Origin: Auriscalpium vulgare
Lineage: Eukaryota > Basidiomycota > Agaricomycetes > Russulales > Auriscalpiaceae
Assembly (NCBI GenBank): GCA_019915015.1
Contig: JAHBBC010000052.1
Location: 1 to 64,000, forward strand
Length of the DNA stretch: 64,000 nt
Direction: 5' to 3'
The position numbers were made by a program, and so were the translations under genes. Each line of letters starts with the position of its first letter. Position 1 is the stretch's first letter. The notes under the pieces were generated by a model. The model was not told the DNA's origin. It ran no database searches and saw nothing but the letters and a program-made list of their open reading frames with translations. Shown in pieces: positions 8,107-64,000 of this stretch.

Positions 8107-8570
8107 ATGCGCTTGAACAGGACCGAGCCCAGTTGGAAGCGAGAGGCTCGCAAGCTGAAGCAGCGAGAGGAGACGGCCATAAGATGGTGGGTCCTATGAG
8201 CACTCGCCCGTCGCAGATCGCTCACAGCGTGGAGCAGGGGCGCGCCAGCCTCCGGATGTGTCTGGAAGGACGGCGGGATTGTGTGGGATCCTGTCCGGGC
8301 GGCATTGCTGCGGAAGAAGCGGGGCACGAGCGAGAGGGGAGTATTTGGTGGGCCACTGAGGGCCCCTGCGGGGCCTCCACGCGTCACCGACCAGATGGTC
8401 CGCAACGCGATCGCTGCTGTCTGGAGGCGGAATGGCTGGGGCGTCTCGGGGGTGGGCAATGGCGGGGAAGGGGACGCCTGAGGCGGCTCGGGGTGGAATG
8501 GCTGGCATGACGACGTCTGGGGCGGTGGGTTTGCCGGCGTTGACGAGTCCTCGTCCTCGGGGAGTGGATG
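8107..8570 (+). pseudogene. WG-repeat protein pseudogene, copy 1
   Basis: The frame starts MRLNRTEPSWKREARKLKQ, has an in-frame TGA at 8197-8199, then continues with ASGCVWKDGGIVWDPVRAAL. This aligns with the gene at 51037-51528 (PVSGYVWIKGGLAWDP). A second stop at 8479-8481 replaces a tryptophan codon that survives in copy 2 (19847-20326). The lost tail would be rich in Trp-Gly pairs. Confidence 0.6.
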
Positions 8571-11547: not shown

Positions 11548-11700
11548 TACGCGAGGTGGGCGGGGCCAACGTAGTCCATTGGAAAAGCTGCCGCGCGAGC
11601 TTTCACCGGGAGGGTGAAGACGACGCGCACCTGCGCAGCTTGATACCCTACAGCGGCAGCGTTAGCATCTCAGCTGCTCCTGTCGGGGACCGCGGCGTAC
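11548..11700 (-). pseudogene. Displaced upstream part of the Plavaka remnant
   Basis: This continues the open frame broken at 8997. On the minus strand it encodes a segment equivalent to AQLRAIFSLPVRAREA of the intact transposase (here AQVRVVFTLPVKARAA). It is almost identical to 20753-20905. The splice acceptor region of the last exon (TGTAG before GGTATC) is still recognisable. Confidence 0.65.
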
Positions 11701-11706
11701 CTATCG

Positions 11707-18830: not shown

Positions 18831-18876
18831 GAGTGGAGAGGTTTCACCAACCCTACTGAACCCTACCATGCCCCAT

Positions 18877-18896: not shown

Positions 18897-20752
18897 CCCC
18901 GACTGCGACATTCCCCCAGGATGTCGAGATGTGGAGGACGAGTCGGGATCGGGCTGCATTTTTGGTCATGCTTTCGTGTTGCAGGATGACAAAAGGGATA
19001 CTCGCGGCATGGGAGGAGGGAGCTCCAGGGCTAAAGATAAAGAGGTGGAGCTGTACGGTTGTTAAGGTGAAGGTGGCTTAGGTACAAGTTGTTTAAGTCC
19101 TGTTTCAAACAAGTGTTATCGCACCATCATGTCATGCAGGATGAACGTCGAGGACGGACCGCGCAGCGCGCGGCGAGATATAAACATAGCGCAGAGAGGA
19201 ATGTAAATGGGCCTGAAACATCACAATAGTGAGACACCTACCAGGCAGGGCAAATTAAGGTATTCCGCCACCATAATTCGCTATTGCAACACCTCGAAAG
19301 CGGTGGTTGTTGCTAAGGTGGGGGTTTGGGAATGCAACATGGGACGGGTTGTTGAGGTCGCTCTGAGGGGATGGGCGCGTCCGTCCGGGACGGACGCTCG
19401 CAGACCGCCCCATGCAAGTCACGTGATTTTGCAGGAGAGCCGCGTCCGATGTCGCGTCGCGCGACCGTCTGCCCACATAATTTTGGCTGCGCTCCACCGG
19501 CATGATAACAAACTACCTGATATGGCGCGTAAACAGGGCTTCGAGGATTTCACAATTTGTCAAGGTCGCTATCAAGGGTTGGGAGTGTGCGCGTCCGGCC
19601 AGGACGGACACTCCCAGGCCACCTCTTACAGGTCACGTGATTGCGTAGGAGTGCCGCGCGGCGTCCGCGGCCGTCCGTCCGCGACGGGCCCTTGCGGTTG
19701 TCTTAGTCGGTCCGCCTGGGCGAGAACACTGGGCGAGAACGAGCCGGCGTGGGAAGGAGTCTGCGAGCTTGCGCCAGTCCGCCTCTCGTACCGCGCCCAC
19801 CACCGCTGCAGCCTCCACCACCAAGCACCCTGCACACCAGCATCCGATGCGCTTGAACAGGACCGAGCCCAGTTGGAAGCGAGAGGCTCGCAAGCTGAAG
19901 CAGCGAGAGGAGACGGCCATAAGATGGTGGGTCCTATGAGCACTCGCCTGTCGCAGATCGCTCACAGCGTGGAGCAGGGGCGCGCCAGCCTCCGGATGTG
20001 TCTGGAAGAACGGCGGGATTGCGTGGGATCCTGACCGGGCGGCATTGCTGCGGAAGAAGCGGGGCACGAGCGAGAGGGGAGTATTTGGTGGGCCACTGAG
20101 GGCCCCTGCGGGGCCTCCACCCGTCACCGACCAGATGGTCCGCAACGCGATCGCTGCTGTCTCGGGGTGGAATGGCTGGGATGGCGAGCCCTGGGGCGTC
20201 TCGGGGGTGGGCAATGGCGGGGAAGGGGACGCCTGGGGCGGCTCGGGGTGGAATGGCTGGCATGACGACGTCTGGGGCGGTGGGTTTGCCGGCGTTGACG
20301 AGTCCTCGTCCTCGGGGAGTGGATGAGACGGCCTCTGCAGCGGGCGCCGCACGTAGCTCCCACCGAATACAGTCGCTGCATCTGTGTCCCCCTCTTGCCC
20401 GACGCGTGGCCTTCACTGGCATTTGCAAGTGTTTGCGAGGGCGTCACAGGTGGTCCTTCCTTGCCAGACAGATCAGTGCAATGGGGTGTCAATAGACTGT
20501 AATATAGGTGTGTCTGTCTATAAAGGAAGATACATAAAACTTTCTACACTTGTCGAGGACGTTCTCTGAAGTCAGTGGCGAGGAGCTTGCGGCCCGAATC
20601 GCGGCATGAGGTGCACGCTCCGGTGGATGTCCTTGACAGCAATTGCGCTTGCCTGCCTGCGGAGGCCCGTTCGGAACTTTCGCGACACCCGGTAAGTACA
20701 TGAGATGGTTCGGCTCTGACGCTGGCCCGAACGGTGGAAACCACTCCACGTA
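18895..20752. repeat. Segmental duplication, copy 2
   Basis: Partner of 7154-8997, with scattered substitutions and small indels. Unlike copy 1, it retains the uninterrupted junction CACGTACGCGAGG at 20747-20759 and runs straight on into the Plavaka remnant and a short satellite array. Confidence 0.92.
19847..20326 (+). pseudogene. WG-repeat protein pseudogene, copy 2
   Basis: Same frame as copy 1, with the same early TGA (19937-19939). The downstream frame is open to 20326 and preserves the tail: SGWNGWDGEPWG, DAWGGSGWNGWHDDVWGGG and a serine run. The Trp-Gly spacing resembles the gene at 51037-51528. The shared TGA shows that the damage predates the duplication. Confidence 0.6.
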
Positions 20753-20850
20753 CGCGAGGTGGGCGGGGCCAACGTAGTCCATTGGAAACGCTGCCGCGCG
20801 AGCTTTCACCGGGAGGGTGAAGACGACGCGCACCTGCGCAGCTTGATACC
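20489..20850 (-). pseudogene. Plavaka-type transposase C-terminal remnant, copy 2
   Basis: The minus-strand frame reads VVFTLPVKARAAAF, then LAYVEWFPPFGPASEPNHLM, and ends FYVSSFIDRHTYITVY. The middle (YRVSRKFRTGLRRQ, IHRSVHLMPRFG) is in another frame, so two frame shifts are present. It is uninterrupted by the 2.55-kb element found in copy 1. Only the last exon is represented. Confidence 0.75.
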
Positions 20851-20904
20851 CTACAGCGGCAGCGTTAGCATCTCAGCTGCTCCTGTCGGGGACCGCGGCG
20901 TACC

Positions 20905-21195
20905 TATCGCAGTGTGAGCGTCCTGGACGCCCACTGCACGCGCAATTGCTGTCAGCGGGCCATGCGCTGTGTGTGTCCGTCCGGGACGGACACTGCCGAG
21001 CACAGGCAACACGCTGCGGAGGGTGGCGCACGGCGTGCGCGTCCTGGACGCCCACTGCACGCGCAATTGCTGTCAGCGGGCCCTGCGCTGTGTGTCTCTG
21101 TCAAGGAAAGATGCTGCAGAGCATGCTGCGCAGGCTGGCATGCGGTGTGGGCGTCCTGGAAGCCCACTGCACGCGCAATTGCTGTCTGCGAGCTG
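20905..21195. repeat. Satellite array 3, about 2.5 units
   Basis: Short counterpart of arrays 1 and 2 after copy 2 of the duplication. It has one type B and one type A unit and the same terminal sequence, followed by GTTTCACCAACCCTACTGAA and a single telomere-like unit at 21255. Confidence 0.93.
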
Positions 21196-41533: not shown

Positions 41534-41562
41534 TGTATTCGAACTTTATGTCACATTCTCTG

Positions 41563-42810: not shown

Positions 42811-44241
42811 GTCTACGGGGTGGTTGTTGGTGAGTGCTTGCAGATGGGTACCGGCCATCGCGTTTAAGAATTCTGTCTAAGTATTCTCCTTTGCGTGGAG
42901 TCAAATTACCACTTTCGTGTTGGAACATACAATGGCCGTGCACGACGGCGTCATCATGGCACTTCTCTCATGCGAGCCCTCCCTTGTTGCCTGCGCAACG
43001 GCTCCATTCCCCCTTCTGATGCAGCCCTCGGAGCACGGCGACTTTTCTTAAGACTTTCCATAGCATTGGCGAATGCCTTTGCTATTTCCGTCTTAGCATT
43101 CAGTTCACCTTACCAATGGAATAATTGATCCCGATTGATCGGAAGTACCCCTTTGCCTCGCTTGCACTTCAACATACTAAGTCGTTTTTGTTTTAGGCAG
43201 TCCGGATATCCGCGCGCCACCCTTGCTACCCTTTATTCACCAGCTCCAATTTCCACGCAATGGAGCAATTTCACGTACAACTGCAGGTAGTATGCTGTCC
43301 ATAACGTCATTCCATGGTGTTCAAGACGGCCGAACACTCTCGTTCATTCATTCATGCGTACTCTTTTCACTGTACAAAGCTCAATATTGACCAAGTTTCT
43401 ATTAGCTGTTATGAATATGCACGGCATAATATGTGTCTACGGCTGAAATGTATGGCCGCATGGCATCATCCCCTCCGCTCCCACGGACTCGGACAAGATT
43501 GCCGTTGGCGCTCCTTCCCTTCTTCAAGACCCTGAAGAAAAGGTTAATAAATAGAAGCGCGGATCTGTGGGGTAATGGCGCAAACAATGTCCCCGTAACG
43601 AAGGATTCGACTATCGGAGATTTCGCTTACAACGCCTAACACTAAGAGCGGCCTAAGGTAAATATATCACCAAATCTTGATCTTTGCGGAGCGGCTGACA
43701 AGGCGGTGGAGTATCTAAATTTACCTGTCTGTTTCATACACATGCAAGTTTGGGTCACAGCGAAGGTCGTCGTGACGCCGGCAAATATTGAAGAGGAACA
43801 CTGCGGTACCGAAACAGCGTTGTGGAGAATTGGCGCTGAAATGAATCTTCTTCTGGACACCGTGACGATCGCAACATTGATATTGCGTCATGATTGTCGA
43901 CTTGATACCTGGCTCACGCTAAGCTATCTTCCTTGGCTTGCTCTGCATGGTTGTGGGGACGATGATCAACAGCCTCCTTACTGCTCACTGCCTAGGCGAT
44001 CCATATTGCGCACTGACTACCCTCATTAATTGGTGCATCACGCCATTTCCACAGTCTCCACTGGTATTAGCCGGATCTGCATTCCTTCTTGAAGTTGTGG
44101 CCATCGCAACATGGAGCTGGCATCATAGCCGTTGGCTTCTAGCATGTCTCAGGGCTGGCTGACCAAAATTGTGCCTTTTCCGCGCGGGCTTGAGGACACC
44201 GACGAGCGGTCTCCGCGCTGTTCGCGTACTACGCTCAGCAA
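42811..44241. other. No gene recognised
   Basis: Scattered short frames only. It separates the convergent gene pair from the left end of the large element at 44242. Confidence 0.4.
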
Positions 44242-44267
44242 CATCTGGAAACCTACTCTATACTAAT
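44242..44267. repeat. Left terminal inverted repeat (26 bp)
   Basis: Exact reverse complement of 59999-60024. Homology does not extend inwards or outwards. Confidence 0.85.
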
Positions 44268-44611
44268 TAATGCCTTACAGATGTCTAACCCCACCCCAAA
44301 ATGAAAATGTTGGAGTTTCAGCGTGAAACTTGGCATGCAGGTACACCTCAGTGGGGGCACCACACACACCAAAAATGAAGTCGATTGGGTTGCCCACTGA
44401 CCAGCAATATGTGTTGCGATTTGGTACTGATTTCCCGAGTGAATTGTCACTGTGCTGGTCACATGTGACATCCATGTCACCTGTACTACAAAACACATCC
44501 CTCTGGCACAAACCAAGCCAGTATTGACAGTATTGGGTAGCACTTGTCCAGAGGACCATAGAACATAATATCTACAGTATGCACATAAATTATGGTACCA
44601 TGGCAGCTAAG

Positions 44612-46369
44612 TCAATCAACCATGGCAGGGTTTGAAACGCCCTGCCCGTGCATCACCCTCAAACGCTCGCGCATCGTCCTCACGTCGTCCTGGAGCTCCC
44701 TCCTCTTTGAAAATAACTCCACCGACCGCTTCCACCGGAGATCGATCTCTTCGTCTAGGTGTTTTTTGAGCTCCGGGTCTTCGCGCTCAAGTGCTTTCTC
44801 CGTGCGCTGGCCGTACGCTTGCCAGCGAACCAGATCGCCTGAGCACCACTGTGTGAAGGACTGCCGCGTTTCGCCGTCCTGGATTGGGGTGTTGCTATGG
44901 GTGAGAAGTGCCGACGGAATGAGTATAGTGGAGCCGGGGGGGAACTCTACGATCAGCTTCAGCTCCCATAGAATCAGATGCCCTCCCTTTTTGTAGTCGT
45001 AGTTTCCGAGCGCAGTTATTGCGCACCACCCGAACGGCACATTCTTTGAGTCCCGGTGGGGCACGGTCAACGCCCGTGGTCCAAAGTTGAACGTGGCCAT
45101 GGGGAACACGCTCCGCGCGAAGGGCTTCTCGAGGAATGGCCTGCGCGCGCGCACGTCCTCCACGACTTCATCCAGGCGGCCAAAGAGACGAGGTGCGTTG
45201 AGAGACGTTGCGCCTAACATGCCGCAATGCGTGTGTGTCGCGTTGAGAGTCGTCGAGTGGGAGCTGCAGAGGGAGACACTCACTGCTCTGGAACCCTGCC
45301 GCGCGCTGAATGCCTTCGTGTGCCAGGATGCGTGATCTTGCCAGCTGGTGGTCACTGCTCCCGGCCTTTGTATTATGAGGCTCCTGAGGATCAAAAGTGA
45401 GTGCTCAATTTTCAGCGACAAGCACTGGCAAACACGCACTTCCGACCCTCCGCCATGAGTAAACCCTGCGTGCAGAAAAGGGTATCGCCCGCGCTGATGA
45501 GGGCCGGGCTCGAAATCAACAAGCGGGGCGACTTCATCTAGCACTTCGCTCATGCTCTTTGCTTGGTCGGGCCAGGTTTTGTCCGTAGGCGGCCGACCAG
45601 CCAATTGTACCAGTATCCGGTCCTCGCGGTCGGCCACCGACTTGCTGCCACTGGGGAGTGCATTGAGGCAAAGAATCAGCCCCCGACATGGCCAATCAAA
45701 TACGTGCCGGCGTCACTCACGTTCCATCCCAGTGCTGGACCCGAAACGCATGCTTCTCCACCAGCTCCTCCGGCGGTACGAGCCTGTCGAGGTATGTCGC
45801 CGCGACCTCGTCTAAAGCCGTCGTTCCCCGCCACCCTGCGCTGGAAACCTTGAAGTCGGCCATGGTGTCAGCCGGGACGGCCTCCGAGTGCGTGATTGAA
45901 TGGGAGGCGTGGGTGTCCGCCATGTGCTGAGTGGGCAGAGGCAGGCCTGACTGGGTCCTTGGCTTCGCTGCCTTGCGACGGCCGCGCCGGTGCCGTTTCT
46001 TGCGGGTCTTCTGGGGGTCCTCGCCTTCCACGACCCGCATCGCCCTCTCCTCGTCTTGCGTGTCTTCATACTCCCGCCGCTCGCGGGCGCGCGCACGCGC
46101 CGCGCTCCGGGCGGCTTCCGCCTGCTCACTTGACACGCCCGACCCCCTAGCCTCCTCTCTCTCGCATGCGGCATCACCTCCGCCCGGCGAACTTGAGCGC
46201 GCGTTCGCGCGGCTGAGCGCAACTGACGCCTCGATGGCACGCGCGAGGTCGAAGTCGAGGGACGAGTAATTGGCGTCGTAGCCTTTTTTTGACCGCGTCT
46301 GGAGGCAGCATGCTCAGCAGAACGTAAAGGCGCAGTAGAACGGCGGCGTACTGTGCGTCTTCCACTCAT
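44612..46369 (-). CDS. TET/JBP-type 2-oxoglutarate dioxygenase, one homopolymer frameshift
   Basis: Exons 46369-45721, 45650-45440, 45383-45284 and 45213-44612, all in phase, give about 520 residues. The catalytic half reads ATFNFGPRALTVPHRDSKNV (HxD iron ligands), PFGWCAITALG, GGHLILWELKLIVEFPPGS, LIPSALLTHSNTPI (distal His) and ETRQSFTQWCSGDLVRW (2-oxoglutarate-binding Arg). This is the pattern of the expanded fungal TET/JBP family, which can oxidise 5-methylcytosine in DNA. The N-terminal part is basic (KKRHRRGRRKAAK) and has a UIM-like helix, LARAIEASVALSRA. The A7 tract (T7 at 46284-46290) puts the first 27 codons out of frame with the rest; one more A restores it. It may be a sequencing error or a real break. 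Confidence 0.72.
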
Positions 46370-47381
46370 TTTGTCTCACGTCTTCCTATGCCTGCCTGCG
46401 AGGAGCAGCTTTTTGGCGACACGTGTCAGCGTTTGTGGACGTGTGCCAGCGCAGCCCGTACCCGCCGCGCGCACGCTCCGCACGCCTCTCGAGAGACCTG
46501 GTGCCAGCGTGATCCTCACCCTGGGTGCTTGCTGTAGGCCTTCCCTTGGCGGCTTGGCTCCCGCAACCTGAACAAGGCATGTCAGCGTGTGCGCCGCATC
46601 TGCGCAGCCCATGAATGAGCAGACAGCTGGCAAACTCACCTTGACCTTTGCTTGCAGACGCCCTTCGCGCGCACAGCGCGACTGCCGCGCAGGAATGAAA
46701 TGCAGCTGCGTCAGCATGCGCCGCTGGCACAGAGAGTGAGCGGGCTGGCAGAGGACGAGTGCTCACCTGGTTTTTTTCTGGCTGTTGATGCACACCTGCA
46801 CTGGGCAAGCTGGGGCCGCTGGGAGAGCTGGGAGAGCAATCAGCTTTGGCACACAAACAACGGATGAGTGGCGCACCTCTTGGCACACAAACAACGGATG
46901 AGTGGCGCACCTCAGTAGCCTCTCAATCGACCTGACAGACGGCCTTTCCCCAGGATGACGGCCGCGCCCAACGCAGCGAAGTCTGCGGGCCTTGCACGTC
47001 GAGCTACGTCCTGTGGCAACTCTTGTCAGTAGAGGCAAGCTAGTTTCATGTTGAGAAAGAGGAGGGCGCCGCTGCGCCGCGACCAGACGCGTCCAGCGCC
47101 ATACACGTCGTCGGGACGCGTCTGCGCAGCCCAGAGCCGCCTGGTGTAGCGTCATACAAGGCTGCGCAGGCGCGGCTCGACGGCGCGCGTACCGCGAGAC
47201 GCGTCCAAAGGGCGCGGGCAGCGGGAAGAAGACCACAGCTGAGCACGAACAAAAACGCGTCCAGCGCCATGCGCGTCGTCAGGACGCGTCTGCGCGGCCC
47301 AGAGCCGCCTGGTGTAGCGTCATACAAGGCTGCGCAGGCGCGTCTTGACGGCGCGCATCGCGCGAGACGCGTCGAAACGGC
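46370..47381. repeat. Tandem repeats between the TET-like gene and the next gene
   Basis: A 33-bp unit (GGCACACAAACAACGGATGA...) is repeated twice at 46848-46913. A 168-bp unit starting near GTCCAGCGCC (47091) recurs at 47259, with a partial third copy from about 47427. Translated on the minus strand the 168-bp unit gives 56-residue repeats (CAALYDATPGGSG), but it has no clear gene structure. Confidence 0.75.
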
Positions 47382-48837
47382 GTGCGTACTGCGGAGACGG
47401 CCACAGATGAACCCAAAAAAGAACGTGCCCAGCGCGATGCGCGTCGAAAGCCCGCGCGTGGCGGGGAGAATGCCGAAGAGAAACGAAACAAGACCCAACG
47501 ACTCACGTGCAACCGCTCGCTGTGTTCCTCGCCTATCTTCGGCTGGTCAATCCGTGGGCGCTGTCGAAGGGTGGGGGGCGTTGGAGGGTGGTCGGTCGAG
47601 GCGCAGTGGGTTGAGCGGGATTCTGGTTGTCGTTTCCCACGGACTGCCAACCCCGATGGTCGCGACTTCAACAACACGCGACGCACCCTCGCCCTCCGCC
47701 TTCATCCCTCTCCACTCAATGGCGTTTTGGCCAAAGGTCAGTCGTCGGTCCCCGGACTCCAACCTGTGCGCTTACCGGGCCTCCAGGATACTCTTCAAGA
47801 TGTGGACGTTGTGGTATCAGGGCACGGCACGCTGGAGGTGAGCTTCAAGCCCGACGACGGCGGCGTCCCCACGGTGCGTGTTCAGTTTTTGACCCCGAGC
47901 GGCGTATCTTGACACCCTCTCTGTTTAGCACATGCGAGTTGTCTCGCAGCCAAAGCATCGCGGGGCTGCGCAAGCTGTCCGAGCCGCCGCACCTCTCCCC
48001 CAGGCCGCCCAACCTCCGCTCTATGAAAACCGCACCGGGGGCACCCCAGCTCCCTGTGAGCCAGCTGCGACGCCCGCACCCAGGCAAGGCGACGTCTCGG
48101 GCACCCGCCGTCCTACTGGCACAGGCGCGCCGATGGACGTAGATCGACAGGACGCCCCCGTAGATCGACAGGACGCCCCCGTGCGCGGCGCCATGCGCGC
48201 ACCCGCTGCCATGAACCACACCATTCCTCCCGAGGAGCGCCCCCAAACCGCCGAGCAGCCCGTCGCGCCGAGCACCCACACGGCTTCCCCGCACGCGACC
48301 ACGCCGTCCGATGATGGCATACGAGCCAACACGCCTTCGGACTGGGGCGAGTATGCTGCCGACGGCATGCTTGTCCTCACTCCGTCCGAGGCTCAGCTCG
48401 TGCCCATGGACGGCGCTCCCGGGTACTTCAAGATGACGAACCCTCGCGTTCTCGCTCTCCTGGAGGGCCGCAGCGGCGTTCAGCACGACGCCCAGCGAGA
48501 TAGCGCCTCTGAGGCAGACGTCGACGAGCTTGCAGACGGCCAGCCAGACATCCCCTACGACCTCGATGACCAGACGGCTCCGGACCAGCCTCTGCGCGAC
48601 TCGGTGCGCCGGCGGGCTTCCGACCTGGCCGGCCGCAGCGCTGGTCCCTCCGAGCTCTCGTCGCCGTGAGTGCCCTCGCAAACATATCCCTACTCTCCTG
48701 TTCTCACCAGACGATCCAGCCTTGCGGTCGCCAATCGGACGAACAGACTCGCGGCCGCCAAGCGGTCGAGCCCACAGCCCCCACGTCAATCGGCGAGCGT
48801 GCGCAAGCGCGCCCGCCTTCAGGCGACCCCCGAGTGA
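47382..48837 (+). CDS. Small-motif family member 1, disordered protein
   Basis: Exon to 47873, intron 47874-47928 (GTGCGT...TTTAG), exon 47929-48665, intron 48666-48710 (GTGAGT...ACCAG), exon 48711-48837. The phases agree. The N-terminal region has DVDVVVSGHGTLEVSFKP, a beta-strand-like motif also found in three neighbours. The middle is Pro/Ala/Thr-rich with a 21-bp in-frame duplication (VDRQDAP twice), and the C terminus is basic (SVRKRARLQATPE). The true start is uncertain: the first 80 residues of the open frame derive from tandem-repeat DNA. No known family. It runs head-on into the gene at 49135. Confidence 0.5.
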
Positions 48838-49134
48838 AAGGCGGAAGCCGGCTGCGGGCCATCTAGGTTGGGCCACAGTCGGGCGGGGCCTGCGGGGTTG
48901 CCGAGAGCGTGTTGCAGCAATTCAGAGTAGCACCGTGTTCGTAGGCTTGTGTCTTGTTTGCGCAATCAGATATTTCTTGAGGCATGCCACACATGGGAAG
49001 GAGAGTGCCAAGTCAATTACATTTGTGTGAGTGCGATACGCCTCGAGGTAAGTAAGCCATGCATGCGCCCCGTAGCGATCGCCTGCGCACCGCCGAATGC
49101 GCTCATGGCAGGCGGGCGCGGCGCAGTGCACGCA

Positions 49135-50103
49135 CTACTGAGGCCCGCTAAATTTTGCCGTGAATGTGGGACCGCGGATGCCCCGAGCACGCGGGGGCTC
49201 GGAGTCCGCACGGTCGCCCTCGCGGCGTCGCTTGCATGGCGTGACAGGTGGCTCTATCCAGCCATTGTCAATAGCGCGGTACCTTGCAGGCGTCCGCACT
49301 CCCGAGGGGGTCCGCAGGCGCGAGGGCGTCGTAGTGAGTATGTCCTGGGCGCTGCGGCGTTCGTTACAAATCTGCCCGTGCGCTGACTGGTCGTTGATTG
49401 CTACGCACCTCAATTGCAAGCCTGCACTCGCTATGGAATCCTCCGGGGCTTGCGACGCCTCGCCGTCTGCGACGTGTGCCGGCGACGACGGGGCCAGCGA
49501 CGACGACACGAAAATGAGCGGATTGATGGCGTCCGAGTCGGGCTCCGTGTACGACTGGCTGGAGCCCGAGTCGAACGTGAATTGCGTGCCTGCTAGCTGG
49601 GTCTCGGACACGCCACTGTCGCCAACTGATGCGGCCTCGCCAGGTGGCGAGCCCGCTTCTGGCGGCGCAAGTGGGCTGCTCTCCCGACGTGCGATTGCGG
49701 GGGAATCGCCGGGCACATCCTCGGCAGCGTCATTGACGATTCGGGGCGACGAGCGCGCCTGATATGGAGAGCTGTCCGTAGGAGCTCAGTAGTGGCAGAT
49801 GCGTCCATGATTGACAGAGTGGGGCACGCACCGTGGCTCGGACTTGACTCTCTCGTCTCTCCTGGAGATACTCGCTGCTACATGTTGCCCATCTTGCGGT
49901 TCTATGTTCTGGCGCTGAGATCCATCGACCTCGAGGAACTGGCAAGAAGAGGTGCAGTCAGCAAGGACGCGGTGCAAGCTTATCCGGCGACGCACCAGAG
50001 GACTCGGCCGCCCCGTGAGAGGGTCGATCTCGGGGAGATACTGAATTTCGACCTTGCCAGGTCTGGGCAGCGATACATGCACAGTATTCTGACTTGAGGA
50101 CAT
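49135..50103 (-). CDS. Small-motif family member 2
   Basis: ATG at 50103 (MSSSQNTVHVSLPRPGKVEI), exon 50103-49832, intron 49831-49772 (GTGCGTG...GACAG, 60 nt), exon 49771-49135, about 302 residues. The N terminus carries the shared motif TVHVSLPRPGKVEIQYLP followed by EIDPLTGRPSPLVRRRIS. The remainder is acidic and Ser/Pro-rich, with DSGSSQSYTEPDSDAI, then a basic patch CKRRREGDRADSEPPRARG, a possible nuclear signal. The frame is open upstream to 50208, but the first ATG before this motif fits best. Divergent from the gene at 50316, sharing about 210 bp of intergenic DNA. Confidence 0.5.
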
Positions 50104-50315
50104 AGCTTGGCAGTCGGCAGAGTCGACAGTGTCCGGAGATTGTGTAACGCGGCAGCGCCCATGCGTGCACAGCCACACGCGCTGCCTCTTTGCCCGCGTG
50201 AGTGCCACTTTGCCCGCGTAAGTGTACCCTGCACAGCCACTGATGGAGTCGGTGAACTCTCTCGCCAGCGAACCTCTTCTCTTCCCAGCGCTCTCTCCAG
50301 TCTCGGCCCTCCATC

Positions 50316-50831
50316 ATGTCGCCTGTTTGGAACCTCAACATCAACGTAACCCTCGCCGCCCCAGGGCGCTATGTCCGTCCCCCAACACTGGCCTTGATCA
50401 CACCCTGCTGACAGCTTTTTCAGACTCTCGATGTTGCGCTCCCTGCGTGGGCTGCAGGCCGCGCGACCGGTTCGCCCTTCGTCTTCACCAGCTTCCCCAC
50501 CAACGCCCCGCCAATGCCAGGTGCCGGCGCTTCTGCCACGTTTGGGACGGGCATGCCTCCAGCTCCTCCACCCTCACCTGTCGCCACGCAGCAGCACGCT
50601 GCGGCCGATCTCTCCGGCGACGACGCCCCGCTGTTTACCCCGCTCTCCCCTCCGCCGCTGCGCCGCAAGCAGGGACACCGCCGCGCCGCGTCCTCGCGAG
50701 GCTCGCACCGACGCGTGCCCTCCAACCCGGTTGCAGTGCATCTGCCCCCCATGAGCGAGTTTGGGACCCGTGCGCCCGCAACGCCTCTCCGCGACGACGT
50801 GAAGTCTTCGTCCGCAGACAAGCAGCACTAA
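50316..50831 (+). CDS. Small-motif family member 3
   Basis: Exon 1 is 50316-50372 (19 codons, MSPVWNLNINVTLAAPGRY), the intron 50373-50423 (GTCCGT...TTTTCAG) and exon 2 50424-50831, giving 154 residues. The motif NINVTLAAPGRYTLDVALP spans the splice site. The rest is Pro/Ala-rich with a basic patch (PLRRKQGHRRAASSRGSHRR). The intron falls at the same place in the motif as in the gene at 52258, arguing for common descent. No other domain. Such a short first exon is easy to miss in automatic annotation. Confidence 0.55.
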
Positions 50832-51036
50832 GGCTCGCCTGTGGTGCGTGCTTTCCCTGCGCTGCTTGACCGTCGCTCATGGCCTCCTTTCAGACAGCAG
50901 CGAGGGTCGTTTTGTGCGTGTTGCGCGGACGTACCAACCCCACATTACTAGCTTACATTGACTAGCTTACATTAGTGACTGTGTTTCGTTCTCAATATCA
51001 TGTTTATGCCTCAACTATATTGTCGTGCTGATGCGC
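50832..51036. other. Intergenic, no feature
   Basis: Contains a small direct repeat, ACTAGCTTACATT, twice at about 50948-50974. Otherwise nothing is seen. Confidence 0.4.
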
Positions 51037-51528
51037 TCACGAGCCCCCCGACTGGGAACTCACGCTCTCCTCGCCCCAGCCGCCGGTCCAACCTTCCCAG
51101 CCGCCGGTCCAACCACTCACGCTCTCCGCCGCACCCCAGCCCCCCCAGGACCACCCACCCCAGCTCCCCTGCACTGGGGCCTCCGCAACCGCCTCCATGA
51201 GCGGCTGCGAGCGCGTGTCCACCTCCGCGATCGCGCGCTCTCGGGGATCGCGCGGGGGCGGCCTGCTTGGCCCAAACGCGCTCGCCCTCCCGGCTGCCTG
51301 TCTGTGTCGCCACACCCCCTGGTCCGGGTCCCAGGCAAGACCTCCCTTGATCCAGACGTAGCCCGAGACGGGCTTCCCAATCCTCCTGCACTGCCTTGTC
51401 AGCTGGATCATCCGTGGGCACTCGGCAAGGGCGCACCATTCTTTGAAGCGCTCCTCGCGCTTCTTCAGCTCGGTGGCCTTCTTGCGAGCTTCGCGCATCC
51501 AGCCCGGCTGGGGGGTGTCAATGCGCAT
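51037..51528 (-). CDS. GW/WG-repeat protein
   Basis: A single open frame of 163 residues starting MRIDTPQPGWMREARKKATE. A charged helical N-terminal third (ELKKREERFKEW) is followed by a conserved core, GKPVSGYVWIKGGLAWDP, and a tail of Trp-Gly pairs: GSWGGWSWGGWGAAES and SGWTGGWEGWTGGWGEE. The core and the tail style recur in two pseudogenes in the subtelomere (8107 and 19847), each beside a Plavaka transposase tail, so the gene travels with the transposon. GW/WG repeats are the known docking motif (AGO hook) for Argonaute proteins. A role in countering RNA silencing is a hypothesis only. Upstream exons are possible. Confidence 0.6.
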   Translation of the reverse strand: MRIDTPQPGWMREARKKATELKKREERFKEWCALAECPRMIQLTRQCRRIGKPVSGYVWIKGGLAWDPDQGVWRHRQAAGRASAFGPSRPPPRDPRERAIAEVDTRSQPLMEAVAEAPVQGSWGGWSWGGWGAAESVSGWTGGWEGWTGGWGEESVSSQSGGS

Positions 51529-52257
51529 GGGTGGGTAGGGCGTGGGCGAGGAAGACGGGCGATGGATAGGATACTTAGTAGATTGCGCGTACGACTTGCC
51601 CGCGCCGGCTCATATATTCAAGCACAACCCCGGCCAACACGGGGCAGTCGAGATGATCATGGGGGGCCGTCGATCGGTGAGGACTGTTCGTCCATCGATG
51701 CACGTCGGCCGCGGCATCGCTAAGAGTGGTGGGGGATGTACGCCGTGTGCGCCGCCGACCTCGTGCAGTGTCTCAGGAATGGTGGAGCGGGTCCGGTCGA
51801 CAACTGCGCGGTGTATCCACAGGTAACCGGATGAATGGCGGCGGCTTGCGCTGAGATCGCGGGGCGGGGTTTCGCGGTATCTTCGGCGCCCGCAGGCAAT
51901 GACTCGGCCCCACGCCACGCATGGCGAAGGGCGGGGTTGCGATCAGTCATGCAGATTAAGTCCTCAGAGAAGGACAGAGGGGTGTACTCACTGTGCCGAC
52001 CCCCGACTCTGGCAGCCTGACAACGGCGTCCGTCGTGTCGGACAGGAGGACGCCCACTTGTTGTAACGTATCCTGTAGAGCTAGTTAGCATACAAAATGA
52101 TTGGAGTGAGCCCGACAACTTGCCTTGCTCAGCATGCAGCCCGACCAGACCCCGACAGCGTAAGTACCTTGAAGGCCAAGGGAGCTGGGTGTGACGGCCT
52201 GTGACACCCCGCCGGCAGCGAACATTACGACCCATTCTTATGTGCCTACCGTCAACC
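51529..52257. other. No gene resolved
   Basis: A long minus-strand frame (51720-52568) is open but overlaps the gene at 52258 and has no recognisable composition. I treat it as chance. It may hold upstream exons of the WG-repeat gene. Confidence 0.35.
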
Positions 52258-52599
52258 ATGCCGACCAACACTCTCTCCCTCGTCATGCTCGAGATTGACC
52301 TTGAAGCCCAAGGGACCATAGTGCGTATCCATTGACTATACCTACCGCACTCCCTCTGATGGTTGCTCGCCCAGGTCATCGACGTTCGCGTCACTCCCAA
52401 CGGCAAGAAGTCGTGCACATCGTACTCCATCCCACCGGCGCTGAACCTGCCACACGCGCGGCCATCCGGTCTCCCCGTTGTGCGCACCGTCAACCTGAAG
52501 CTCAAAGTAGGGGACAAGGCCAACGATCGCTCACGCGTTGACCTCGCTGAGGCCGTCGACCTCATCAACGGCGTCGCTACAGTCTACGGCAGCGAGTAG
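52258..52599 (+). CDS. Small-motif family member 4
   Basis: Exon 1 is 52258-52320 (MPTNTLSLVMLEIDLEAQGT plus I), the intron 52321-52374 (GTGCGT...GCCCAG) and exon 2 52375-52599, giving 95 residues. The motif LEIDLEAQGTIVIDVRVTP again spans the splice site, as in the gene at 50316. It is followed by GKKSCTSYSIPPALNLP and TVNLKLKVGDKANDRSRV, more beta-strand-like than its relatives, without a disordered tail. It looks like the minimal form of the family. An in-frame ATG 18 nt upstream is an alternative start. Confidence 0.55.
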
Positions 52600-52832
52600 C
52601 GTGGAGTGGGCTCGCTGTCCGTGTCCTTTGGCCTGCTTTTTTTGCGTGCACTGACTCGCCTTCAGCCGGTGCGCGGGCCACCAACCTGAGTATCTCGCCG
52701 TAGAAATTTTCACCCGCCATCACCGTCCATACCGTTGACGCTTCGAATGAATGATTTCTTGACGCATTGTGTGCTACCTGTCTGCCTTGAGATGAACGTT
52801 CACGACGCCTGCATATCAAATGGACTATAGGA

Positions 52833-55800
52833 CTAGTATATGGTGATGTATGTATGTCTGTCTACGAAAGAAGACACGTGGAACGAGTCACAGACGTCCA
52901 AGACGTTGTCGGACCTCCAGTGACGCGGCACGACCGCACCAAATCGTGGAAGAAGGTGCACGCTCCGCCGTATCGCCCCGATGTCCACCACGGCCGACTG
53001 CCTCACACCATCCGCCCGGTATGACCGCTTCACTCGGTACATGAGGTGGTCAGGCTCTGCAGCGCCCGTGAATGGCGAAAACCACTCGACAAAGGCCAGG
53101 TATTTCGGGCCCTCGTACTGCGGAGGGAAGACGGCCTCTCGAGCCCTCACAGGCAGGCTGAAGATGGCGCGTAGCTGCGCGACGCGATACCCTGCGTGAA
53201 GTTTAGCAGCAGTCGATATCTAACCTGTTGCAGCACACCTTGGACTCCGTCGCCATCGCCCGCTCCCGTGTTGACCAATACAGTGTCGAAGCGGCCAGGC
53301 ACGGCCCCTCGTGGGCCGAGATAAGACGGCCGAGCGTGGGCGGCGTCGCGAGTGTCCGGGGCGCCGTCGATATCCTGGGGGTCTGCTAGCCAAAACTTCA
53401 TGACGTTGTAAGTCGCAACGGTGCGGAAGGGCAGATGGAGCCCGTTGGCGACATTCGCAATCTGGGCGTCCGTATGGTTGGGGTTGCGCTCGCGAAGGAT
53501 GTATCGAGCCAAGGCATACTCAAAGTCGGCCGCTCCGTGGCGATGCGCCATTTGCACAAAGGAGACGGCCTTGGCACTCGGATTGCGCGCAATATGGATG
53601 CGTGGATGGGGAACGACGGCGGCTGGAATGGCGGCGGCGTGGCCTGCATTTGCGACTCGCCACTTGATGAATTTTGCATGTCGAAGCACCTGTTCGCGGC
53701 GGACGAGCCATTTCGTCATTTGAGGGTACACGTCCTTGTGGTTTGAAGCCCGGTACGCGTTCTTTGCGTAGTCGATATGGAGCCGCTCGGTTGCCTCTGT
53801 GTTGCTATTGTCTGTTGTTCCGATGAGCTTGATAGAAGTAACATAGTGAGCAAGGGCGTGCAGCTTGGGAAAATTGAACCCTTCTCGAATGCCGAGGAGC
53901 TCAAATATGAACTTGCTATCATGGAAGCGTTTGAGAGCCTTGCTGAGGTACTTGAGAGTGGCGTCGCTATGCGAGGGATATTGTGCCAAGTAGAGGAAGT
54001 CCAGGAGCGCGCGGACCGTGCGCACGACGTGTGTGGGAGACGTCCCGTCGGGGAGTGGCAGGTCGACGATAAGGCCGAGCAGGACACGGCAGATGTCTTT
54101 GTGTTCCTGTCCAGAGACGCGGGAGAGTATCGAGATGCCGTTCTTGAAAACGCGTGTGTTGTGATTGGGCGGGAGGCGGGCGCATCGCGCATCGATTTCG
54201 GCCGAGCCAAAGGCAACTGTGAGCCAACCGACGAGATGCTTGACCATGCCCTGATACAATTGATGGAGGATGTCAGGAGTGATTGCGACGAACACGTTGG
54301 AGTAGGGCAGGTCCTCCCAGAAGGGGTGCAGGACTGGCTTGAGCCCAACGTTCTGGCATGCCTCGATGTACGCCTCCGGCCCGCGATCGATGGCAGAGAG
54401 GGCCTCCCGAGCAGCTGAAATGCTCCGCGGAGACGGCAAGGAAGGTGTGTAATCGCCTAGGGAATCGGGATGGACAAAACACTTGGGACACTCGCCAGAT
54501 TTGACGCATGCGACGAGAGCTTGCTCGGGGTAGTCTCCGATGAACACGGCGAAGATGGGGTGGCAGCGACGGACAACGCCGTCGCCGCTTGCCATGTTCA
54601 TACCGTGAAGTGCATGCGTGCGTGTCGGCGAGACGATTCTGTGAACGCACGCATGGAATAGATTTGCTGCGGCGCGCCGGCGAGTCTCTGCAGTGGTGAT
54701 ATGGGAGAGGCGGGCAGTAGGAAGGTAGCCGATTAGAATCTGCGCCTGCTTGGATGGTTTGCGCCGGTCTTCCTTCGCAATGTTGCCGATGGTCAGATAG
54801 AGGGGGTAAGCGGATTTGTTGCGAAAGTCGGTGACAAGAGTCTTGTCAGAGGAAAAGATCAGGGGCACAACGGTAGCGCCCGGGGTTCTGCTTTCGAGCA
54901 AGGTCTGCAAGCCAGATATCAGCCGATATGCCAGGAAGCGAGCGCTGCGACACACCTGTATATGCCACCACCACTTGCCCGTGTTCATCTGGCCGTACAG
55001 GCGGGGGCCATCATGCTCTGCTCGGTCGGGTGCACCTTCGTCTTCTTCATCGTCGTCGACATAATGCGCCTCCGGGGTAAAGGCCATGGAAGGAAGATAC
55101 TCCGGGTTGCCGTACAGCGATCGTATGCATGCAACAATGTCGCGGGAATACAGCTCGTATGTTTCACCGTCAACGGTGATTTCCTCGCAGTTGAACTCGG
55201 GGAATTTCGGCATGGAGGAGTCAATGATGGCGTTCAGCGCTTTGGACGTGTTGAACGACAGGCCAAGTTTTTGGCGAACCTTGGAAAGCGCTGCGCATGA
55301 GCCATGAACCGTATGAGAGCAGCGCCATGACGCACCTCATCAATCTGTAGCAGCTCAGTGAAGGCCGTCGACGAGGGCCCGCGCAGCTTCGCCCATCGTG
55401 CAATCTCCCACTCCAACTTATTTTGGAACGGAGCCCACACGTTTGCAGGCCCGCCGGGACCAAGCGCGTCGCGGTAAGCATCGTAGGTCGCCAGCGGCGC
55501 CGCCTGCGCAACGGCCTCCCCTGCTTGGCCCCCAAAGCGGACTATCTTCGCCCGCTTGTTAAGGCCCTGCTCGTCTTCATGCCGCCGCTGCTGCTCTGCG
55601 ACGCGCGCCGCCTCCTCCTCGTCCATGGCCGGGAAGGCCGGATGCCCGTTGAGTTCGTCTGCGGGTTGGGGATCTACTGGGTGGGGGCGGTCCTCGTCCA
55701 TGGGCTCATAGTCGACGTCGAGCTGGCCCGCTAGCTCCTCGTCCTCTTCTTCCTGCCCCTCGTCTAGGTCGTCGTCGTAGGGTGCATCGTCTCCCTGCGC

Positions 55801-56304
55801 TGCGATATCGTCCTCTCCAGCCCAATCGAGATCGTCCGGGGCCAGGTCGTCTCGCCAGATGTCGACTGGTGGCAGAGAGGCGTCAGTGCTTGGCCACAGA
55901 GGTTCAAAGGGACGACGCTCACGAGGATCCACCCCATCGAATCCCTCTTCGCGTGCCTCGAATTCTTCGTAGTCAGAGCCCAGCGGTGATTGGGCGCGCA
56001 CGGTGACCTCACTGCCGGCGGAGGGAAGTGGCGCTCCGGCGGGATGGACCGCTGCTGGGGAAGAACTGGAGGCAGGGAGTGGGCCGGGCGCATGCAACTC
56101 CGCTGCGGCGACGGTAAGCTGTCGACGCCGATCGTGTGAGGTTGTGGGGGCTTCGTCGGTGGGGTGTTGGCGCTGTTGCTCGCGAAAGGCCGCGCAGCGC
56201 AGGGCCGTCGTCCAGCGAAGATGCTTGGTGAGTCCGGACGGTAGGAAAGTTTTCCCGCAGCCACCGCAGGGCTCGCGATTGGTAGACATGATGCGTGAAT
56301 TCAA
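52833..56304 (-). CDS. Plavaka-type transposase, full length, three exons
   Basis: Exons 56304-55336, 55279-53239 and 53191-52833 with introns of 56 and 47 nt; the phases fit and give about 1122 residues. The N terminus has a C2H2-like finger (CGGCGKTFLPSGLTKHL). A long acidic region follows, then WAPFQNKLEWEIARWAKLRG, SRDIVACIRSLYG, VPLIFSSDKTLVTDFRNKSA and YPLYLTIGNIAKE, hallmarks of fungal Plavaka proteins. Candidate catalytic acids are the Asp of FSSDKT, the Asp of IGDYPEQ and a Glu in TEATERLHIDYAK (inference). The C terminus ends VSSFVDRHTYITIY. It cuts and moves DNA elements in the nucleus. Intact, and probably the mobiliser of the surrounding element. Two subtelomeric remnants derive from a relative. 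Confidence 0.85.
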
Positions 56305-56478
56305 GGGGAACGGGAGGGAGTGATACAGGCAGGGACCAAATCACCAAGGCGGAGCTATAATGTGGCGCGCCCCGGGCAGGTCCTATAAAATTGCTTCCAA
56401 GTCAGCAGCGGGCAGACCGTGCGACTTGTCCTCTCACCACACTGTCCCTCATTTTGTCTGCCCGGTGGCCGCTCGTCG
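56305..56478. promoter_or_regulatory. Divergent promoter region
   Basis: 174 bp between the start codons of the transposase (-) and the DUF6532 gene (+). It contains TATAA-like sequences on both strands (near 56356 and 56385). The arrangement suggests the two genes are co-expressed. Confidence 0.4.
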
Positions 56479-59400
56479 ATGCGCACTCGTAGCAAGAAAA
56501 CATCGGGCGCCCGCAAAGATAGCGATGGGCAGCAGCCCCCTAGTACGCAGCGCAAGATAGCGCCACGTCAACGCGGGAAGCAGGCCGCCGGCGGGGATGT
56601 CAACGTTGATGGGGATGTGAACACCCCTCCCATACGTCGTGAGCGGCTATGTCTCGTAGTGCAGAGCGCTGGCCGTTAATCAACACCCACAGAGCCAAGA
56701 AAATCAGCAGCGAAGAAAAAATCGTCGACTGGCACGCAGCAGCTCACCTTTACTCGACGTATGCGGCGTCTGACAACTCTTCCACAGCGCTGGACAGATC
56801 CAGTCGCCCCGCCAACGGTGAGAGCGAGGAGGAAGCGTCCGACGGCCCTGGGGCTCGCAAGCGGGCGGCGTCAACTGCCGAGCCGAGAGCTTCTAAATCA
56901 AGCGCTACTAAGAAAGCAAAGTCAAACGCAGGTGAGTGAAGGCGTGCATTAGCGAACCATTCACCCTCAGCGCCATCACAGCCCCGCGAGCACAGTCTGG
57001 AAAGCAAGGACCAACCGTGCGCGAGCAGGCCGCCAACGAGTCTGCCCTGAACGATGCGCTGGACGAAGACACGACGGATGAAGACACGCGCGACACGTGT
57101 GAGTGATTGCTCGGGATGAAGTCAGAACAACCTCACCTTATCATAGCGCATGGTGCTTTCCCGGGTCACGCCCGTTGAAGATCTCCAGAGGGCGGCCGAC
57201 AACTCCTGGATGGCTTCGAACGCGAGCCTGAGCACATCCAATCGCGGCACACAACTGGCGCTGGACGATGAAGAGCTCTTTGGCGAGGCCCTGGATCTTC
57301 CGGAGTCCGACGGAGAGGCGCCTGAGAAGGATGAAGAGTGGTCGGCGGAGGTAGACGGCGAAGAGGGAGGTAGGAAGTCTAACGTCGAGCGTCAGTTCAA
57401 CCGGGCGGTGAGTTGGTTCACCTCATTTGGACCTCAAGCTTTCAAGCGCTGAGCGCCTTCTCCGTGGGATCCAGACGCCCCAATGGGCCTCAACAGACGC
57501 TGTACCTGCGCCTGTCACAGAGGACGAGCGACGCTTGCTCGACGACTCCCTGGCAGAGCTCTCCGACTTTGAAGACGTCGCAAAGTCATCCTCCCGACCT
57601 CGCCACTCCTCCTCGCGCTCATCCCGAGTCATTGCCTCGCCAGAGGGCTCCCCGCCGCGCATCCCGTCAGCGTTAAAAGGTAAGGGGAAGGCTGCCATCG
57701 CGGCCGCTCAACCGCGCCCGCCCGTCCAGAAGAAGGCACCAGCAAACAACACCCACGGCCATGCGACACAGGTGGAGGTATGTAGGCGCACCCCGCGGGC
57801 CACAGGCATGTCCTGTCGGTCGGACTCACTTGTTTTCCTCGCAGATGGTCGTCGTCCCGCGCAGGCCCAACATGTCGCGGCCTTCAGCGCAGAAGAAGGC
57901 GCCGTCGAGCGACCCTCGAGGCCATCAGAGCGAGACACAGGTAAGTTGGCACGCCCGATCTCCCACTGGCGTTAGCTGATCTGTTTGGCTGGTACGTTTG
58001 AACGTTGCCAAGGTACGTCGCCGCCATATTCTTGACGTCTGCGCGGCTGACGACGAGTTGCTCATCGCAGACCGCTGGCCTGCTCCCGAGCATGTCCGGT
58101 GTGGTCGTCGTCGAAGATTCGTCGGACGACGGTGAGGCATCCGGGTGGGGCAGATACGGCCGCGTATGTACCTCCCGACATCGGTTGCGCTGCGCCACTA
58201 ACGCGACAAGCGCAGACACCAACTGCCGCAGCAAATGGCAGCAGAAGAGCCGCAGGCACGCCATCTACTCAAGTTAAGGAGATAAGTTTTGATTAGTATG
58301 CGTACTAACAAACTTCAGAACGGCATCGACGACGACATGCTACAGCTCGTATTGCACGACAGTGCAGACGGGCAGGACAGTAACCACGGCCCCGACGTCG
58401 CCGGCTCCGTCGCACGCAGCAACTCCTGCGGCCCTGCAAGTCAAGCCGTGAAGACTGCTATCGCTGCACCGGCTAGTGAGCGCAACGGCTGGCCGGCGTC
58501 AACAGACCTGGTCTTCCCTGAGAAGGGTGGAAGGAGTCGTATGACCATGGGCGACCAGACACGAGATGTGGCGCAGGTCATCCAGCGCGCCATGAAGCAT
58601 GAGGTGTCGAAGTTCATGTTCTTCAAAAATGCTTACCCTGTGGAGGGCGCTAGGGAAGCGTACATTGCGGAGGCGCTAACTGTCGCCGCGACCGACTTGA
58701 AGAAGATGGACATCGTGGCAAGGCTGCAAGAGGACCCGGCGTACAGGGAGGGCATGGCCATCATGGTGAGTCATCGACATTGCTGCTGCTGGGGTGCGCT
58801 GAGGAGGACGCATCTTTTTAGCCCGAGGCGCGGATGGCGAACCATCGGTTGAAGATCAAAGTTGGGGCCGACAACATCGTCAAGTCCGCGTACAAACTCA
58901 AGGAGATACCCGAGGGAAAGTACGCGAAGAATATGGCACGCGTGCTTCAGGGCGGGCTCAATGGCCGTCTGTACGTCTTCCCAGGCGACATCGCGGTGAG
59001 TGGGTCTTGCCTCCCCAATTTGTGTGCCTTGTCTGACTGGAGTGACGCTTCCCTCTGGCGGCGGCGGGCGCGGCTGCCTAGACTCTGAAATTCAACACTG
59101 GCCTGCCGTTCCACCACCCTGCCATTGTGGACCTCCTCGAGGAGAAGTTCTTCGGAGCCCGCGCGGCCTTCCGCTTCCCGAAGGCATTGTACATCAACGT
59201 GTCGCCTGGGCGCAAGGAGCCCGTCATACCGCCAGTGATGCTGGCGTTTGTGGCAACAACGGTACGTTCCTGTCGTGCTAGATCTATCAAACTAACCGCG
59301 ACACAATGTAGATCGACGCGGGCCTTCAATCTCACGCGCTGGGCCCCGGCGCTGCGACCAAGATCCCTTTCGACTCGGACAAATTCAAGCTCGTGTACCA

Positions 59401-59674
59401 GGACCATCTGAAGCGCCTTGCGCGCCTGAAGGGTACAAATGCCCAAGCATTCTGGGCAATGCTAGCCAAGTTGTACCAAGACGCATCGTGAGCACTAGCT
59501 TTGTGGGAGTATAGCCTTGATCATGTGCTGATGTTCCTTGCATGTAGATCTGGCGCGGGCCGCGACCCCAACGAGTTCGACGACGGCGACGGCGACGCAC
59601 CCAGCGATGACGAGGACGATATCGTGAACGCCAAGCATTTTGCTGCGAATTTTGCTGCCAGTGGTTCGAGCTGA
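56479..59674 (+). CDS. DUF6532-type protein, multi-exon
   Basis: Start MRTRSKKTSGARKDSDG at 56479, stop TGA 59672-59674, about eight or more exons. The N-terminal half is charged and disordered (SRPANGESEEEASDG, KSSATKKAKSNA, QRRAADNSWMASNAS-like exons), and the exact splicing between 56640 and 58300 is uncertain. The C-terminal domain (58490-59490) is well defined: VSKFMFFKNAYPVEGAREAY, KIKVGADNIVKSAYKLKEIP, TLKFNTGLPFHHPAIVDLLE, ALYINVSPGRKEPVIPPVM and FDSDKFKLVYQDHLKRLARL. This matches the DUF6532 pattern of mushroom proteins (role unknown). It is divergently paired with the transposase and ends 325 bp before the right inverted repeat, so I regard it as cargo or an accessory gene of the element. 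Confidence 0.7.
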
Positions 59675-59998
59675 CTGTGGGCCACGCTGTGGTCGCGGTT
59701 TCGGATGCGGTGTTGTAAGTGCAGGCTTATTTGCGCGCGATCATTGCTTATTCCTTCATATTTTCTGCAACATGGCCTGTCCCTGTCCCTAATACTACCA
59801 TGCTTGTCTTCTGCTCTGTACTTATTATATACTCTGTGCGCCAAATTAGAGCCTAATTATATGCTATTGCTGTCTGCAGAGTCTGTGGGATATGGTGCAT
59901 TGTGTGCAAATAAGATACAAATAAGTGCACAATAACGAAGGGGTACCCTAATATAATGCTAATCATAATTAGCAGCTATAAGAGGTAATTTAGACGAT
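59675..59998. other. AT-rich subterminal region of the large element
   Basis: No gene. Contains TAATTA and ATAATTAGC motifs that form short self-complementary stretches (59955-59975). Confidence 0.4.
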
Positions 59999-60024
59999 AT
60001 TAGTATAGAGTAGGTTTCCAGATG
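59999..60024. repeat. Right terminal inverted repeat (26 bp)
   Basis: Exact reverse complement of 44242-44267, bounded outside by AACC. Confidence 0.85.
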
Positions 60025-60246
60025 AACCAAGTTGCTCGCTCACCGCCCTCATTTTTTGACGCATCACGGTCTCTCCGCAGTCTCCACTGTTGCTGACCTC
60101 TATCTTATGTGTCCTTCCGACTTGTCGTTGAATAAGCGATCACTCTTGGAAGTTATAAGTCGTGGATATTCCCTCCCAACAACTTGTCCATCTATCGACA
60201 CACCAATTCTTCACCCGTATTCCTTCCAGTACTATCTTGACGCACC

Positions 60247-63701: not shown

Positions 63702-64000
63702 TTCTGTCACCCTTTCATACAATTAATCCAATGTATTGTGTTTGCTCGTATAAGTACACTGTGATTTTTCAATTGTCCTTCCTCATCACTGTTGGTCATG
63801 CATAATACATTTGCTGCTTGTCTGATTTCATCTCTTTGTGCACATAAGATGATCTGAAATGTCATTTGGCAGACATGGAATTGACATCTTGCAATGTCAG
63901 TTGATAACTCTTGTGGGCAGATTGTTCACCTAATCTAATCTTATCAGTCTCCACAGCTTATGCAAGCATGTTGGACTTTGTGCGTCGGCTACCTTCTTTG
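63702..64000. other. Downstream region, no gene recognised
   Basis: AT-rich 3' flank of the preceding gene. Nothing further is visible before the window ends. Confidence 0.4.

Follow-up and report, generated by a model that had tools for sequence, protein, structure and literature searches.

A recently mobile 15.8-kb Plavaka transposon of Auriscalpium vulgare with a predicted TET/JBP-type dioxygenase gene and a divergent DUF6532 gene

Does a 15.8-kb block of the Auriscalpium vulgare genome, bounded by a short inverted repeat and encoding a Plavaka transposase, a predicted TET/JBP-type dioxygenase and a tryptophan/glycine (WG)-repeat protein, move as a single transposon, and what might its other genes contribute to that movement? 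The block (15,783 bp) lies in a 64,000-nucleotide stretch of DNA, here called the window (contig C52); coordinates without a contig label are those of the window, and C-numbers denote contigs of the same 51.6-Mb assembly. An earlier reading made from the letters of the window (the sequence-only reading) proposed that the block moves as one unit, and the near-identical copies, target duplications and empty sites described below show that it does. That it is a recently active, apparently autonomous cut-and-paste transposon of the CACTA/EnSpm-like Plavaka type, in which a TET enzyme counters silencing and a DUF6532 protein serves as partner, is a broader statement that we judge, taken whole, to be slightly the better bet. 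The limits of the element are as follows:

44240..44241, target-site duplication AA, left (flank comparison; a single AA at the empty site on C13)
44242..44267, + strand, left terminal inverted repeat, 26 bp (repeat and pattern search)
59999..60024, - strand, right terminal inverted repeat, 26 bp (repeat and pattern search)
60025..60026, target-site duplication AA, right (flank comparison)
C52:44242-60024, C22:729432-745310, C8:1497282-1513068 and C51:73739-89617, full copies (pattern search, alignment)
47087..47422, 168-bp tandem repeat in two copies; at the adjoining site 47439 the C22 and C51 copies have 96 bp more

The two 26-bp ends are perfect inverted repeats, as the sequence-only reading had it, and a pattern search of the assembly finds 11 sites at three mismatches or fewer and none for the reversed control pattern. 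Eight of the sites are the paired ends of four full-size elements, two are both ends of a broken copy on C10, and one belongs to a truncated copy on C2 that matches only the first 2,186 bp of the element. Because all 11 are ends of full, broken or truncated copies, the 26-mer is not a dispersed host repeat, the finding that would have spoken against a transposon. The three further full copies, on C22, C8 and C51, lie with the window copy at four unrelated genomic sites, each with different flanks. Relative to the window copy, those on C22 and C51 each carry two substitutions and a 96-bp indel, at the same position in both, and that on C8 carries 14 substitutions and a 4-bp indel; a 13,284-bp relative is present on C4. 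The flanks are AT-richer, as had been noted, with a G+C fraction of 0.61 inside the element versus 0.51-0.56 in the four window stretches outside it that were measured.

Target duplications of 2 or 3 bp beside inverted termini are a trait of the Plavaka superfamily, and 2-bp duplications are found at five elements: the window copy (AA), C22 (AC), C51 (TA), the C10 end pair (GA) and the C4 relative (AT); matching duplications thus flank three of the four full copies, C8 being the unmatched one. The window flanks joined through one AA, with 44241 next to 60025 as the sequence-only reading had predicted for an empty site, occur exactly at C13:1328239-1328638 (400/400 nt). Two empty sites of the C51 copy lie within the window itself, both in older repeats:

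11543..11782, - strand, empty site of the C51 copy, junction 11663/11662, 239/240 to the joined C51 flanks, in an old Plavaka remnant
20750..20985, - strand, second empty site of the C51 copy, junction 20866/20865, 235/236 to the joined C51 flanks

The C22 copy (between C22:729431 and 745311) interrupts the first coding exon of a gene, presumably one resembling sterol 24-C-methyltransferase, and this exon reads through across the joined flanks. An insertion-free relative of the site at C29:112034-112407 was considered as a clean empty site and dropped, as it is diverged (90%; 87% over 1,556 columns) and is either a paralogue or a diverged allele. The 26-bp ends, the 2-bp duplications, the four near-identical copies and the two copies with empty sites therefore establish with near certainty that the 15.8-kb element moves as one unit, and the near-identity of the copies together with the exact empty site shows that it jumped recently.

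The transposase gene named by the sequence-only reading is real:

52836..56340, - strand, Plavaka transposase gene: C-terminal exon 52836-53219, main frame 53150-55336, and N-terminal frame 55237-56340 with a C2HC zinc finger

Its product matches the Plavaka transposase domain PF18759 over the full profile (1-325) at E 3.3e-103, and a sequence search of solved structures gives no match at E <= 1. The exon layout is taken from A. vulgare protein P0121. A 729-residue frame without stops is identical in all four copies, and codon-position bias relative to its relatives points to selection on codons. The motif order is D, D, C(2)C, H(3)H, E, with CPKC and HALAH between FIGDYPEQ and TEATERLH, the choice of catalytic D and E being our own reading of the sequence. 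In the excerpted text of Kojima 2025 (PMC12730594), the CMCT clade has C(2)C and H(3-4)H between the second D and the last E, an order also found here; the same excerpts place Plavaka with CACTA/EnSpm, and not in the KDZ group as the sequence-only reading had assumed. The termini, CATCTGG..CCAGATG, agree at four of five bases with the CATCA..TGATG of PlavakaB.

The putative TET/JBP gene occupies the left end:

44615..45712, - strand, TET/JBP-type 2-oxoglutarate (2OG)-Fe(II) dioxygenase, frame with the catalytic exon, two likely introns read through
45061-45041 (HRDSKN), 44902-44891 (THSN) and within 44872-44855 (R), - strand, TET sequence motifs
45720..46313, - strand, likely N-terminal exon of the TET gene (protein conserved in C11, 61%, C4, 49%, and C48, 42%; codon bias)

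Its assignment by the sequence-only reading stands strongly on fold comparison, in which CcTET is the best match (12-16% identity) and CMD1, lower in the VIA list at 11.7, is not drawn on, and weakly in Pfam, where the window protein scores 14.7 bits against Tet_JBP (E 0.018; cut-off 34.9) and is not among the 10 of 38 family members that reach E 0.01. Against solved structures the sequence alone gives no match at E <= 1, and a profile gives only eight unrelated weak matches up to E 10. Residues H219, D221, H272 and N224 are invariant in 38/38 family members, and R283, which we take to be the 2OG-binding arginine, is kept in at least 90%. The 366-residue frames are identical in the four copies, and codon-position bias relative to relatives indicates selection. 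According to the excerpts of Kojima 2025 (PMC12730594), PE-type TET proteins have HxE instead of HxD, and AG-type proteins have Gly/Ser at CcTET position 331 and Asp at 337, after H326 and D328. The window protein has HRD at 219-221, and N224 and C230 at the spacing of 331 and 337, both invariant (38/38); the predicted enzyme has neither the HxE of the PE type nor the two residues of the AG type.

TET and Plavaka genes are associated well beyond this element. A TET locus lies within 10 kb of 33 of the 53 merged Plavaka loci in the genome, with 2.2 expected under uniform placement, the copies being related and the loci not independent. Among 455 protein-database TET matches the 40 best all come from A. 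vulgare or Artomyces pyxidatus, both members of the Russulales and Auriscalpiaceae, and 22 of these 40 pair with a Plavaka match of the same species on an equal-sized contig (by eye, among 120 listed of 2,221 Plavaka matches). Across 18 linked pairs (17 of the 22, those on contigs under 100 kb, plus the window) the TET and transposase distances correlate (Mantel r 0.684, 0/9,999), and both trees place the window element with one and the same Auriscalpium contig.

A second association involves a gene that does not appear among the element genes named by the sequence-only reading:

58286..59488, + strand, DUF6532 gene in four pieces, divergent from the transposase (PF20149 in pieces, relatives, codon-position bias, linkage)

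Codon-position bias indicates selection on its codons. A Plavaka locus is no more than 6 kb away from 20 of the 30 merged DUF6532 loci (0.4 expected), the orientation being divergent in all 20, and within 20 kb the figures are 24 of 30, with 23 of the 24 divergent. Seen from the transposase, 20 of the 31 Plavaka loci with at least 55% identity have DUF6532 within 10 kb versus none of 22 more distant ones, the query having come from this Plavaka lineage, so that distant DUF6532 genes may have been missed, and the copies being related. One Plavaka clade seems to carry DUF6532 as a constant component. The C10 DUF6532 protein finds nothing in the protein database at E <= 0.001, and the linkage is therefore one drawn from this genome; a full-text literature search for DUF6532 gives one paper, in which it occurs together with Plavaka only as an item in a list of domains. 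A domain without known function gains a strong context here, as the divergent partner of one transposase lineage.

From these components we propose that the transposase would act on the inverted repeats, excise the element and reinsert it through a 2-bp staggered cut, and that the TET enzyme would oxidise host-deposited 5-methylcytosine on the element, keeping its promoters and ends active. This anti-silencing step, attributed to an enzyme predicted from sequence, seems to us just on the probable side. The divergent DUF6532 protein could be a regulatory or DNA-binding partner, like TnpA in maize Spm, an analogy that we offer tentatively and consider rather unlikely to be correct. More elaborate still would be a two-layer anti-silencing kit, kept together during divergence of the Russulales genera, in which TET removes DNA methylation, the WG protein hooks host Argonaute and blunts RNA silencing, and DUF6532 brings TET to the element ends; this is improbable, and if true would represent a transposon attacking both silencing layers with dedicated proteins.

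Several observations weigh against the proposal. The C8 copy is flanked by CT and AG with no matching duplication, and a genome search with its joined flanks gave no empty site; its right flank starts a repeat present elsewhere, and the mismatch may therefore stem from a later insertion on that side. Some TET/transposase pairs disagree between the trees (Av16046/Av64536, Av35154), and exchanges may therefore occur. No TET match lies within 25 kb of the Plavaka loci on C45 (82%) and at C1:3544079 (77%), so persistence does not depend on TET at every locus. There is no CpG loss in the element or its relatives (observed/expected 1.02-1.13), nor clearly in the flanks; with ratios near 1 in most flanks as well as in the element and its relatives, the sequence carries no sign of methylation pressure, and anti-silencing is accordingly advanced as a hypothesis. 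A signature like that of repeat-induced point mutation was looked for in the sequence and not seen; seven of the 14 C8 differences are C to T or G to A relative to the window copy, too few to judge. On C45 itself (150482-156891) there is a Plavaka and DUF6532 pair, the DUF6532 being 95% identical to that of C10, which is possibly a TET-less derivative.

The WG-repeat gene and its homologues are placed as follows:

51040..51609, - strand, WG/GW-repeat open reading frame (ORF), 190 residues with 13 W, nine of them adjoining G (protein homologues)
19829..20260, + strand, older WG-gene homologue with an in-frame stop (E 7e-13), beside the Plavaka 3' remnant 20492-20932 (- strand)
8089..8502, + strand, older WG-gene homologue with in-frame stops (E 2e-12), beside the Plavaka 3' remnant 8737-8997 (- strand)
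C11:54618-55079, WG homologue between TET and Plavaka (36 residues at 50%, E 9e-6, at 54618-54725, then a W/G-rich ORF at 54747-55079)

With no DNA match outside the four copies this ORF was at one point taken to be unconserved, a view overturned when its protein was compared with C11 and with the remainder of the window; the TET and WG genes are both cargo inside the element, as the sequence-only reading supposed, and both recur with Plavaka elsewhere. In the window element the gene and the transposase share a strand, and in C11 they are on opposite strands. The chances are about even that its tail is simply the low-complexity product of a minisatellite with no role in silencing: part of it is built on a 21-bp tandem unit, no homologue was found in the C4, C48 and C10 loci compared, and the excess of W next to G over shuffles is clear in the window copy only (7/10,000, versus 968 for C11, 829 for the 19.8-kb homologue and 7,623 for the 8-kb homologue). 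Set against this, the homologues (35-50% over 36-162 residues) carry a tail rich in W and G whose repeats are built differently. Viral WG/GW silencing suppressors such as P1 of sweet potato mild mottle virus (SPMMV) also have W and G repeats in a tail; in the available part of PMC2904775 these are viral proteins with shown Argonaute binding, a binding that is hypothetical for the protein of this element. A literature search on Argonaute-binding repeats and transposon proteins yielded no transposon-encoded case among the matches listed. Window positions 8089-21000 are rich in tandem repeats and hold Plavaka 3' remnants (8737-8997, 11532-11729 and 20492-20932), the WG homologues and the two C51 empty sites.

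The TET enzyme might instead act on the host genome at large, or on a different base, the transposon keeping it for a general effect and not for its own protection. The excerpts of Kojima 2025 (PMC12730594) report oxidised cytosine in Coprinopsis and Laccaria also on retrotransposons, suggest non-targeted action and allow other substrates, and TET-like sequences are abundant here, with 113 match rows merging into 99 loci, 34 of them no more than 10 kb from a Plavaka locus and the other 65 farther away. The gene is nevertheless kept within a moving element, with intact catalytic residues, codon-level constraint and inheritance together with the transposase, and we think a general effect unlikely, preferring action of TET on the element that carries it.

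The relationship of C52 to C13 bears on whether the insertion is allelic. Around the empty site C13 is 99.85% identical to window 38803-44242 and 99.77% identical to window 60025-64000 (9.4 kb), and it is also collinear at 38-39 kb and 24-25 kb, with a length difference of about 3.4 kb between these. The two contigs are best read as a haplotig pair with a presence/absence polymorphism of the element. Were they a recent segmental duplication and not two nuclear haplotypes, the insertion would not be allelic; the length difference (window 24-38 kb) fits such an event, as do further copies of the flanks, those on C4 and C22 at 75-89% and those on C10 and elsewhere at 76-80%, from which it follows that the flank DNA itself is duplicated in the genome. 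The identity of 99.8% and collinearity at all tested places contrast with the 75-89% of the other copies, and we regard a duplication as doubtful and the haplotig pair as preferable. Copies of the left flank (24001-44241) are of the 99.8% type on C13 and diverged (76-89%) on C4, C22, C10 and C47. Lastly, that a host gene cluster lies by chance between two short repeats, as the size of the block and its several non-transposase genes might suggest, is next to inconceivable given four copies that share their ends but sit at unrelated sites, their target duplications and empty sites, and is refuted by the exact empty site on C13 with its collinear flanks.

The content of the element is less unusual than the sequence-only reading held, as the excerpts of Kojima 2025 (PMC12730594) already describe TET-carrying Plavaka (PlavakaB) transposons in Agaricus bisporus and Gymnopus confluens. 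These share with the window element the Plavaka transposase, an internal TET/JBP gene, CAT...ATG termini and 2-bp target duplications. They differ, according to the same excerpts, in their TET type (PE-type HxE versus HxD...N in the window) and termini (CATCA..TGATG versus CATCTGG..CCAGATG), and in host, the window being of the Russulales type, for which only TET-carrying Kyakuja are reported; the excerpts make no mention of DUF6532 or WG genes in TET-carrying PlavakaB. KDZ (Kyakuja/Zisupton) elements with AG-type TET, of which CcTET is the solved relative, likewise carry TET on transposons in Agaricomycetes, but their transposase is unrelated and CcTET has G/S331 and D337 where the window has N224 and C230. 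Maize Spm (TnpA/TnpD) and Arabidopsis VANDAL (VANC) are, in the available part of PMC10398659, DNA transposons encoding a second protein linked to methylation loss on the element; we draw an analogy and claim no homology, as the window element has a TET enzyme on board and the role of its DUF6532 is a guess. Within the literature searched, in part as excerpts, TET-Plavaka elements are not described with a Russulales host, an HxD...N TET, a DUF6532 partner or a WG gene. TET-carrying Plavaka elements are thereby extended beyond Agaricales, with a predicted TET that departs from the PE and AG residue patterns. The excerpts of Kojima 2025 (PMC12730594) state that transposon-borne TET function has not been experimentally validated. 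Four near-identical, recently moved copies, one with an exact empty site and allele-like flanks, make this genome suited to testing whether TET protects its own element, as filled and empty copies of the same DNA can be compared for methylation and oxidised cytosine.

The ends of the C10 copy are 68 kb apart and flanked by GA/GA, and a 68-kb giant element was considered. Pieces of C10:206594-274734, covering about 34 kb of the 68-kb span, include a KDZ-type cysteine cluster (CxC2, E 6e-26) and a duplicated, inverted 280-residue ORF, and the region is apparently one older element copy broken up by nested insertions. As for the seven genes other than the transposase counted by the sequence-only reading, those for TET, DUF6532, the WG-repeat protein and the product of 49135-50313 are conserved at the protein level in other elements, and the rest are weak. 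The remaining features of the element are these:

49135..50313, - strand, accessory gene of at least two exons (61% amino acid identity to the C38 and C32 TET-Plavaka loci)
47929..48666, + strand, possible accessory ORF, 246 residues, conserved only in the C10 copy (79% amino acid identity), with mild codon bias (18/21/35)
50288..50775, conserved segment (71-72% nucleotide identity to C48, C45 and C10)

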